Part shown: positions 21,695-25,482 of the stretch, piece by piece
How positions within the stretch are numbered: position 1 is the first letter of the stretch
Layout: every line of letters starts with the position of its first letter
Assembly: GCA_030634465.1 (NCBI GenBank)
Contig: DAOWAS010000005.1
Location: 1-39,272, forward strand
Direction of reading: 5' to 3'
Origin: Alphaproteobacteria bacterium
GTDB taxonomy: Bacteria; Pseudomonadota; Alphaproteobacteria; Sphingomonadales; SMXR01
Length of the DNA stretch: 39,272 nucleotides
The notes under the pieces: generated by a model
What the model saw: only the letters and a program-made list of their open reading frames with translations
The model's database searches: none
What the model was told of the DNA's origin: nothing
Translations under genes and position numbers: made by a program

Positions 21695-22612
21695 ATGATT
21701 ATTGGTTGTCCCGATTGTTCAACAAAGTTTGGTATACCAGATGGTGCGCTAGGCGATGCTGGTCGCAAGGTTAGATGCGCTAAATGTGGCCATGTTTGGT
21801 TGGCCACTAATGAAGATGCAATTACTATGGAGCAGCCTGTAACTGAGGCTGCTGATGATAGTGTAAGCCCATCTCAGCCTGAGGCACCACAAGAGGAAAT
21901 CACACCACAACCCGAACCTGCTGACGAAAGCGTTGCGGATGAAGCCCCATCCCCTGAAATTGAGAACACTGAAGCTGAACATACTGACGTTGAAAGTGCT
22001 GAGGAAGATATTAAAGGTTTGGGTGACAGCAGTGTAGAAGAGGCGCTGGCTGTTATTAAGGGTTCCGCCATTGAAGAGCCTGACTTTCCCTTAGGCAAGG
22101 GTGAGATAGGCGAGTTCGCGGCAACAGCTAGTTCCAAAACAGTTGTAATTGGTTGGAGCGCTTTGGGCGTATTTATGGTTAGTATTTTGCTTGTGTTCTT
22201 CTTAATGCAGGACAGTTTGCGTAATGTGTGGCCGCCCATAACAAAACTTTATGATGTGGTTGGGTTGTTGGACGCCACCCATATGGAAAGCCAAGAAGAA
22301 GCTGACATGGCGCCTGTAGATTATTCCCAATATATTCGTATTTCAAACGATGCGGGACTTGAACGTTTGGCAAATGGCGTCCCCGCATTGGTTATTAGGG
22401 GGGCTGTAACCAACACTGCTGATTTTGACATTATCTTGCCTGGTGCTGAGATTGTTCTCAGAAATGAAAGACGTCAGGATATTCAGACGTGGCCTTTTGA
22501 GTTTGATGAGGAAACCTTAAAGGCTGGAAAAACCATGCCATTCATTGAGGCTATATCTAACCCGCCACGGGAAACAACCGAGTTTGAATTAATGCTTTTG
22601 TGGGAAAAATAA
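21695..22612 (+). CDS. MJ0042-type zinc-ribbon domain protein with DUF3426-like C-terminus
   Basis: IIGCPDCSTKFGIPDGALGDAGRKVRCAKCGHVW N-terminus, acidic linker, TM, C-terminal DUF3426-like domain. Confidence 0.82.
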   Translation: MIIGCPDCSTKFGIPDGALGDAGRKVRCAKCGHVWLATNEDAITMEQPVTEAADDSVSPSQPEAPQEEITPQPEPADESVADEAPSPEIENTEAEHTDVESAEEDIKGLGDSSVEEALAVIKGSAIEEPDFPLGKGEIGEFAATASSKTVVIGWSALGVFMVSILLVFFLMQDSLRNVWPPITKLYDVVGLLDATHMESQEEADMAPVDYSQYIRISNDAGLERLANGVPALVIRGAVTNTADFDIILPGAEIVLRNERRQDIQTWPFEFDEETLKAGKTMPFIEAISNPPRETTEFELMLLWEK

Positions 22613-22626
22613 ATTTGCCTGCAAGG

Positions 22627-23913
22627 CTAATTTGTTGAGCGAATGTGTTGGGCAAATGTTTCGCCCGTAGTTTCTTCTAGGCGCAAGGCCGTGTCCCACA
22701 ACAATGACGCTATTAAATCGACATCATACGATGGTGACAAGCTAAGCCGCCAATAGGCTGTGCGCAGTGCTATATAGACAACAAGGTCGTTGTTAATATC
22801 ATCTTTATTTTCAGATATCAGCTTCAGCCTTTGACCAAGCACCGCTTTCGGGGTGGGTTCTAACAGCAACGACTTTCTTATATTTATTATATTTCTGGCT
22901 ACTGGGTTTGAAAAAGTTTTTTGTGGCAAGCGAAATTGCAAAACATCGCTGGTGCTAACTTGCCCCATGGCATCTTCTATGTTTAACCAGCCCAAAACCA
23001 TGGTTCCTGCCCATGGGTTGGCACTAAGGTCTAGCCTTTGGTAGCGCTCTACGTTTTTTTGTTCAAAGGTCAACGGCAAGGGATGAGAAAAAACCTGCTC
23101 TTCGCTGTCGCCATCATCGCCGTATTGCCCCGCTTTTCTAAACTGGAAGGTTATTTTTCTTAAAGGGTAATCATCTTGCCCCACATATCCAACCTCAAGC
23201 GTGTTATCTGGCTGGGTAATTGGGGCTGATGTAAAGCCAACAGATGGCACCTCGTCACGTTTAACCTCAATGTTCCATACAACTGTGTTTTTTCCGCCAA
23301 AGTTAAGCTCCAGCTCGCCAGTTTGGTACATGGCAACTGTTTGTTGATAGGTATTTTCATATGGTGGTGGAAACGCTATCACCTTGCCGTTCAGGTAAAG
23401 GCGTGGTTTGCGTATGCCGCCCTCAATGCTGAACTTAACAATGCTACCTTCCAGCATTGTCAGGTTGTTATCATTTTCGCTAAGGTCTTTATAGCGATGT
23501 GCTTTTGCTAGGTTGGTGTGGCTGGTACCTGTGTAGTTAGGCGGTGCGACCCATGCCGAAATTTTTGCCTGCGAAATGGGCGCGTAAAAGTTAATTTTAA
23601 AAGCATTGATAACTATTTCTAACCCCTGACCTTGGGCGATGGCAAAGCCACTGGCTACGGCGAATATAATAATATATTTGGCACCATAATCACGTTGCCA
23701 CCCCCAATTTGCTTTGTTTAGGGCGGTTTTGGTTAAAAAATATGCGGTTAGCAGGGTTGCAACCAAGGCTATGGGTTGGGCAATGCTTGGTAGAAAAAAC
23801 CAGACATCAAATAGTGAGGTACAGACATAGATAGCCATAATACTGACAGCAGGCCATACCGCTCGCCATGTATTTTTTATAGTTAGAACTGCCTCATTAA
23901 CTTTGGAGGGTAT
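22627..23913 (-). CDS. DUF4175/TIGR02302-like membrane protein, short form; probable non-canonical AUA start
   Basis: Two N-terminal TM segments, WVAPPNYTGTSHTNLA..LYLNG..; ORF-track ATG at 23838 lacks an SD; in-frame extension to 23913 follows AAAGGAGG. Confidence 0.6.
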   Translation of the reverse strand: MPSKVNEAVLTIKNTWRAVWPAVSIMAIYVCTSLFDVWFFLPSIAQPIALVATLLTAYFLTKTALNKANWGWQRDYGAKYIIIFAVASGFAIAQGQGLEIVINAFKINFYAPISQAKISAWVAPPNYTGTSHTNLAKAHRYKDLSENDNNLTMLEGSIVKFSIEGGIRKPRLYLNGKVIAFPPPYENTYQQTVAMYQTGELELNFGGKNTVVWNIEVKRDEVPSVGFTSAPITQPDNTLEVGYVGQDDYPLRKITFQFRKAGQYGDDGDSEEQVFSHPLPLTFEQKNVERYQRLDLSANPWAGTMVLGWLNIEDAMGQVSTSDVLQFRLPQKTFSNPVARNIINIRKSLLLEPTPKAVLGQRLKLISENKDDINNDLVVYIALRTAYWRLSLSPSYDVDLIASLLWDTALRLEETTGETFAQHIRSTN

Positions 23914-23950
23914 AATAACCTCCTTTAGTTTGTTTTATTTATAAGCATTA

Positions 23951-24076
23951 CTAGGCAATGCTTTTTTCAACCTCAACGCTTCCATGTGTTGGTGCTACAG
24001 GGTCACCTTTTTTACCACAACCTGCCAATAACAGACTAGTTAGGCACAAAACAATTAATCCTGATTTTACTGTCAT
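23951..24076 (-). CDS. Small LptM-like lipoprotein (41 aa)
   Basis: Translation MTVKSGLIVLCLTSLLLAGCGKKGDPVAPTHGSVEVEKSIA; lipobox LLAGCGKKG; ATGA overlap with argH stop. Below the length cutoff of the ORF track. Confidence 0.82.
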   Translation of the reverse strand: MTVKSGLIVLCLTSLLLAGCGKKGDPVAPTHGSVEVEKSIA

Positions 24077-25482
24077 TTCAATTGTTCCTTCCACAATTTC
24101 AATTGCTCCTTTACGGCAGATGGTGCTGTGCCGCCAAGGCTTGAACGACTGTTAAGCGCTCGCCTTGGATCTAACACATCATAAATACCGTCTGTGATAT
24201 CAGCCTCTATGCTTTGCATGTCGCTTAAGCTTAGCTTATCCAACTCACATTTTTTCTGGTCAGCCATACCAACTAATGAACCGGTAATTTCATGCGCCCT
24301 TCTAAAGGGTATGTTCAGGTTTTGCACTAACCAATCGGCCAAATCAGTTGCTGTTATGTGGCCTTTCATGGTGGCGGCAGCCATGGCATCTTTGTTCACA
24401 CTTAATGTTGCAACCATGCCAGTTAAGGCCTTTAAGCTTAATATAAAATGATCAACACTGTCAAAAACCGCTTCTTTGTCTTCTTGCATGTCCTTGCCAT
24501 ATGCAAGGGGCAGACCCTTCATCACCGTTAGCATGGCAACCAAATTTCCCATTATGCGACCAACCTTGGCTCTAATTAGCTCTGCGCCGTCAGGGTTGCG
24601 TTTTTGCGGCATTATTGATGAGCCCGTGGAAAACGCATCGTCCAAAACAATGTAGCTATATGGTTGTGACGACCATATAACAATTTCTTCTGCCATGCGG
24701 GAAAGGTGGGTGGCGCTAATGGTAAGGGCGGCCAAAAATTCCAAGGCAAAGTCACGGTCAGAAACCGCATCAATTGAGTTTTGCATCGGTGCGCTAAAGC
24801 CTAATAGTTTTGCTGTCATGTCGCGGTCGATAGGAAAGCTTGTTCCCGCCAACGCCCCCGCACCTAATGGCGACAGGTTCATGCGTTTGCGGCAGTCACC
24901 TAACCGTGCCACGTCTCTACCCGCCATTTCAACATAGGCAAGCAGGTGGTGGGCTAGTGACACTGGTTGTGCCGCTTGCAGGTGGGTGGTGCCAGGTATC
25001 AGAGTTTCAACATGTTGTTCAGCTAAGCCCAACAATGCCTTTTGAAATGCTTTCAGTTCAATTACAATGCTGTCTAGCGAGCTTCTAGTCCACAAGCGAA
25101 AGTCGGTTGCCACTTGGTCGTTTCTAGAGCGTGCTGTGTGCAATCTTCCCGCAGGTTCGCCAATTATATCGCTTAATCTGGCTTCGATATTCATGTGAAT
25201 ATCTTCTTGCTCAATTTTAAAGTCGAACTGTCCTGCGGCTATTTCTTCGCTAATTTGCGCAAGCCCTCTTTTAATCTCGCTAAGGTCAGCATCGCTTATA
25301 ATGCCTTGCGTCGCCAACATAGTTGCATGAGCAATGGAACCTGTAATGTCCTCCTCAGCTAGACGCTTGTCAAAATGGATAGACGCATTTAACAGCTCCA
25401 TAGCTTCCGCAGGGCCGTGGTCAAAGCGACCACCCCATAGTTTATTTTTATTTGTTTTGTTATTGTTGTTTTTATTGCTCAT
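24073..25482 (-). CDS. argH: Argininosuccinate lyase
   Basis: KLWGGRFDHGPAEAMELLNASIHFD; GSSIMPQKRNPDGAELIRAKVGR signature. Confidence 0.95.
   Translation of the reverse strand: MSNKNNNNKTNKNKLWGGRFDHGPAEAMELLNASIHFDKRLAEEDITGSIAHATMLATQGIISDADLSEIKRGLAQISEEIAAGQFDFKIEQEDIHMNIEARLSDIIGEPAGRLHTARSRNDQVATDFRLWTRSSLDSIVIELKAFQKALLGLAEQHVETLIPGTTHLQAAQPVSLAHHLLAYVEMAGRDVARLGDCRKRMNLSPLGAGALAGTSFPIDRDMTAKLLGFSAPMQNSIDAVSDRDFALEFLAALTISATHLSRMAEEIVIWSSQPYSYIVLDDAFSTGSSIMPQKRNPDGAELIRAKVGRIMGNLVAMLTVMKGLPLAYGKDMQEDKEAVFDSVDHFILSLKALTGMVATLSVNKDAMAAATMKGHITATDLADWLVQNLNIPFRRAHEITGSLVGMADQKKCELDKLSLSDMQSIEADITDGIYDVLDPRRALNSRSSLGGTAPSAVKEQLKLWKEQLK

Follow-up and report, generated by a model that had tools for sequence, protein, structure and literature searches.

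The locus considered here raises the question of where translation of a DUF4175 gene begins when no conventional start codon is found at the place where one would be sought. The gene lies on the minus strand of the analysed stretch of DNA (the window, 39,272 nucleotides), which is contig C90 of a draft genome of 2.16 Mb (160 contigs, 95.8% complete). Its start region reads TAA AAC AAA CTA AAG GAG GTT ATT ATA CCC TCC AAA, and the Shine-Dalgarno (SD) sequence, the five-nucleotide spacer and the ATA are located exactly where the initial annotation had placed them (Table 1). That annotation had also described a frame open from the ATA and closed upstream by an in-frame TAA, with no ATG, GTG or TTG ahead of the ATG at 23838, and both statements are borne out by the sequence. 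From the ATA, the frame comprises 428 sense codons with a normal codon-position composition and ends at the TAA at 22627.

The AUA at 23913-23911 is probably the translation start of the DUF4175 gene. It is the best-supported reading because the strength and spacing of the SD, the homology upstream of the first ATG, the predicted first helix and the weak starts of the relatives agree, and it falls short of proof because it comes from a single draft assembly and from sequence evidence alone.

Table 1. Features of the DUF4175 locus, in window coordinates.
Feature	Position	Strand	Basis or remark
DUF4175 gene, short form, 428 codons from AUA plus stop	22627..23913	minus	Pfam DUF4175, E 4.2e-62
argH (argininosuccinate lyase), upstream gene	24073..25482	minus	Pfam Lyase_1, ASL_C2; TIGR00838 605.7 bits, above cut-off
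Small lipoprotein ORF (MTVKSGLIVLCLTSLLLAGCGKKGDP...)	23951..24076	minus	LptM-like by lipobox; direct reading
Convergent MJ0042 zinc-ribbon gene	21695..22612	plus	Neighbour conserved in family
Candidate SD AAAGGAGG	23926-23919	minus	Duplex with anti-SD -12.4 kcal/mol
Proposed AUA start codon	23913-23911	minus	5 nt past SD (spacer TTATT)
In-frame TAA closing the DUF4175 frame on the 5' side	23937-23935	minus	Sequence
In-frame ATT adjoining ATA	23916-23914	minus	2 nt from SD
Earliest in-frame NTG (ATG, residue 26)	23838-23836	minus	No SD; inside predicted first helix
Possible hairpin GGAGG/CCUCC, AUA in loop	23905-23923	minus	Weakly supported; -7.2 kcal/mol

The SD was compared with others in a 1.35-Mb portion of this genome, which amounts to almost two thirds of it. 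The motif AAAGGAGG occurs seven times in this portion, counting both strands. When every gene was given its best candidate, the SD of the DUF4175 gene ranked fifth among 918 genes (top 0.5%; median -5.5 kcal/mol), a rank to be read knowing that the site had been picked in the initial annotation partly for its SD. Moreover, among 954 open reading frames of at least 150 codons, the DUF4175 gene alone combines a near-cognate codon, an SD of -8 kcal/mol or stronger ahead of it and the lack of any NTG competitor. Two further AGGAGG sites at ORF starts had no NTG nearby, one of them with a plausible ATG downstream and the other in prfB. This gene, assigned by translation as encoding RF2, shows AGGAGG CAT CTT TGA C in its start region (L099, minus strand, reverse-complement offset ~11001), which is probably the programmed +1 frameshift site of RF2.

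The initial annotation had proposed a comparison with the start codons of orthologues, and the outcome was mixed: weak starts recur among them (CTG, TTG and GTG), but AUA itself was not found in other genera. No same-genus relative in which conservation of the AUA could be checked was found, and AUA is seen in one draft genome. Within the window's own family, none of the DUF4175 orthologues has an SD-backed ATG. The start is TTG in G001 and G006, GTG in G004, and TTG in G005 and G007, where an SD-less ATG three codons further on is the other option. Two more genomes of the family, both incomplete, show no copy of the gene. The G007 copy (L034 / L011) contains two in-frame TAA codons within about 25 nt that are absent from its close relative G005, reflecting either decay or an assembly error.

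The search was extended to 33 genomes of another family of the same order (f8, Kordiimonadaceae/Emcibacteraceae by its named records). Six of the ten genomes of genus g22 present an SD followed by six bases and a CTG (L233, L234, L235, L237, L238 and L239). The SDs are of the AAGGG- or AAGGA-type, the spacing is always the same, and the CTG always lies 37-38 codons ahead of the first transmembrane motif. Shuffling of the same regions gave an expectation of 0.10 of 10 loci with such a CTG, against the six observed. A seventh genome (G060, L241) carries TTG at this position, while the remaining ones have CCG (G025, L232), TAG (G034, L236) or an unrelated ATG (G064); where CCG or TAG is read, the start can have been moved or lost. 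An SD-backed ATG, GTG or TTG was found in just one of the ten genomes. The codons past the CTG include synonymous pairs (TCA CAG GAA / TCG CAA GAA), as would be expected just inside a coding region.

Genus g25 mostly conserves an ATG, with CTG behind an SD in G030 and G054 (loci L247 and L257). As a control, the start of the adjacent lysA is a conserved ATG at almost every f8 locus. Two CTG candidates from family f3 (L013 and L014), one in G009 at -7.4 kcal/mol and a weaker one in G026, are suggestive only as DUF4175 starts. Elsewhere, DUF4175 orthologues often pair GTG or TTG with strong SDs, such as the GTG of Ancylobacter at -9.5 kcal/mol. Counts of the best-SD NTG over all DUF4175 orthologues (20 ATG, 18 GTG, 13 TTG and 5 none, versus 23, 9 and 3 for lysA) are rough, as the simple caller used mispicks starts, and were given no weight.

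Regarding these data, we conclude that weak starts, some of them outside ATG, GTG and TTG, appear to evolve repeatedly in the DUF4175 gene: CUG in one genus, UUG and GUG in the window's own family, and AUA here. The CUG of the relatives supports the use of AUA in this genome, short of proof. This recurrence, including the conserved CUG, suggests that the output of the gene may be deliberately kept low.

The gene itself is a short member of its family. Its product scores 210.8 bits against Pfam DUF4175 (PF13779), well past the gathering cut-off of 27.3, and 102.7 bits against TIGR02302, below the NCBIfam cut-off of 394.3; the best TIGR02302 match runs from position 139 to 496 of the 851 in the profile, and the C-terminal part is missing. 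The product is a DUF4175 (TIGR02302-related) inner-membrane protein. Relatives measure 537-547 or 810-823 residues in the same family, 533-930 overall and mostly 665-930 in the order. The copies of a sister genus are intermediate in length (537-547 codons), and this short form is under purifying selection there (pN/pS 0.23). Between the stop codon of the DUF4175 gene and the end of the zinc-ribbon gene that converges on it there are about 15 nt (22612-22627), and the C-terminal half of most relatives is absent. A leftover of that half was considered and excluded, since those 15 nt leave no space for it.

The same shortening could be taken as a sign of decay. According to this explanation, an ATG (or GTG or TTG) has recently mutated to ATA, leaving a pseudogene too young for decay of its frame to have set in. 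The reduced length (428 aa versus 533-930 in relatives), the two in-frame stops of the G007 copy and the lack of a copy in two incomplete genomes of the family are consistent with it. Nevertheless, the 428 codons remain open with normal composition, and purifying selection acts on the sister-genus copy. A top-0.5% SD would have to be present by coincidence, and non-canonical codons are also found in related genera, so that a recent loss of the start is unlikely. An error of assembly or consensus at 23911-23913, or a minority allele hiding a canonical codon, would be conceivable in a draft genome of this kind. However, the scan of 1.35 Mb gave no second site of this type, which indicates that start-codon errors are uncommon here, and non-NTG starts are present independently in the relatives; this explanation is rather improbable.

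Another option is that translation starts at the ATG at 23838, the first canonical codon of the frame, and that the SD and ATA upstream are a chance remnant. Hydropathy alone tolerates such a start, as a shortened hydrophobic stretch would persist. The initial annotation had objected that this ATG has no SD and would cut into the first transmembrane segment, and the objection holds. In three relatives the alignment covers residues 9-46, 9-70 and 9-72 counted from the AUA (E 4e-5 to 3e-4), reaching at least 17 residues upstream of Met 26, and the first hydrophobic stretch matches plainly in the alignment, for example LWPALWPAVAIIGFYVALSLFDPW in G004 versus TWRAVWPAVSIMAIYVCTSLFDVW. Furthermore, the AlphaFold model (22 sequences, mean pLDDT 83) shows a single helix over residues 2-34 followed by Ig-like strands, and starting at Met 26 would remove most of this predicted helix. 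Since the relatives align upstream and the predicted first helix would be interrupted, the ATG at 23838 is unlikely to be the start, and we regard it as a very poor candidate. The neighbouring ATT, one codon 5' of the ATA, shares the frame, and infC is the classic case of an AUU start, but at 2 nt from the SD its usable duplex drops to -7.6 kcal/mol versus -12.4 for ATA, which makes it the least credible choice. A frameshift or an out-of-frame ATG close to the SD was also sought in the sequence, and no usable one was found.

Returning to the AUA, initiation would most likely proceed as follows. The initiator fMet-tRNA would read the AUA while the exceptionally strong and well-spaced SD holds the 30S subunit on it. 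The weak codon would slow initiation via IF3 discrimination, and the strong SD would make up part of the initiation lost to the codon. The outcome would be a low yet real expression of a protein that keeps its full first transmembrane helix. The sequences directly show the anatomy of the site, the homology ahead of the ATG at 23838, the SD rank and the CUG pattern of the relatives, whereas we infer actual use of the AUA, its dependence on IF3 and any benefit of the low expression. The GGAGG/CCUCC hairpin could mask the SD and further reduce initiation; its fold has a z of -2.2, with 8 of 200 shuffles as stable, a weak statistic, and no comparative support for an SD-hiding hairpin was found in the relatives.

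The initial annotation had drawn a parallel with autoregulated genes of the infC type. The infC gene, which encodes IF3, starts at AUU, AUA or AUC, and its product feeds back on its own start. The DUF4175 gene resembles it in having a near-cognate start with no NTG at the site, but its product is a DUF4175 protein and not IF3, no feedback loop is implied, and the infC gene of the same genome is on contig C138, away from this locus. Hence, the autoregulatory parallel is not supported, and what would apply to the DUF4175 gene is only the general IF3-sensitive mode of low initiation.

Closer comparisons can be found among other genes. The infC, ccpN and citZ genes of S. aureus have AUA starts with extended SDs and initiate at ~10-30% of AUG (PMC13009471). 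The DUF4175 gene is like them in carrying AUA behind an extended SD. On the other hand, the S. aureus starts were mapped by ribosome profiling and reporters, whereas the present one is known from sequence, and those genes encode a translation factor, a repressor and an enzyme of a Gram-positive organism, while here the product is a membrane protein of an alphaproteobacterium. ATG-to-ATA and ATG-to-ATT variants of rsbW in Listeria show that ATA is translated with lower efficiency and that selection can favour it (PMC13068326). They are selected variants, or variants between strains, of a gene that has an ATG, whereas the weak starts of DUF4175 recur from one genus to another. The GTC start of sigR in Streptomyces limits the amount of protein and is repressed by IF3 (PMC5472188), an effect shown experimentally there and supposed for the DUF4175 gene. 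In addition, the weakening of start codons has been found to be compensated by stronger SDs (PMC5622118).

Of greater interest than the AUA site alone is the pattern seen across the family, in which one genus conserves a CUG. Selection may keep the start of the DUF4175/TIGR02302 gene weak across several alphaproteobacterial families, so that an envelope protein whose gene neighbours ftsE would be made at a level set by IF3 fidelity; this is a tentative proposal, to which we give slightly less than an even chance. To our knowledge, few bacterial genes with non-canonical starts have been confirmed. These starts are missed because gene finders accept ATG, GTG and TTG alone. If AUA and CUG do recur in the DUF4175 family, they would offer a natural set with which to test why weak starts persist; the N-termini of its proteins would likely be misannotated, and the pattern may indicate that the dosage of this envelope protein, whose gene lies near ftsE, is controlled.

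Concerning the surroundings of the gene, the local order is argH, small lipoprotein, DUF4175, convergent MJ0042 zinc-ribbon gene and ftsE. The small lipoprotein ORF is intact, overlaps the argH stop and finishes 24 nt 5' of the DUF4175 SD. It is also found immediately 5' of DUF4175 in G005 and G006, and in G004 by reading frame, while G001 and the Kordiimonadaceae/Emcibacteraceae loci have lysA in this position. In the relatives checked, ftsE lies about 1-3 kb 3' of DUF4175. The gene resembles alphaproteobacterial DUF4175 (PF13779)/TIGR02302 genes in its domain, in the N-terminal hydrophobic helices of its product and in a neighbourhood of lysA or lipoprotein plus ftsE, and differs from them in its short form without the C-terminal half and in its AUA start. 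A PDB search with the protein gave no sequence relative; the fold matches of the model were generic Ig-like domains, and its soluble part is loosely like tandem Ig-like domains. In Rhodobacter, division and envelope genes are regulated by CenKR, and the listed targets of CenR include a TIGR02302 gene (PMC9275681); AdvA, a division protein of Acinetobacter, contains a DUF4175 domain (PMC7481262).

As a minor observation, lysA, found ahead of DUF4175 in many relatives, is absent from the operon described here (24073-23951), and lysA-like sequence appears at the ends of contigs C55 and C85 of this genome, in one case within an open frame of 841 codons that could be a fusion.
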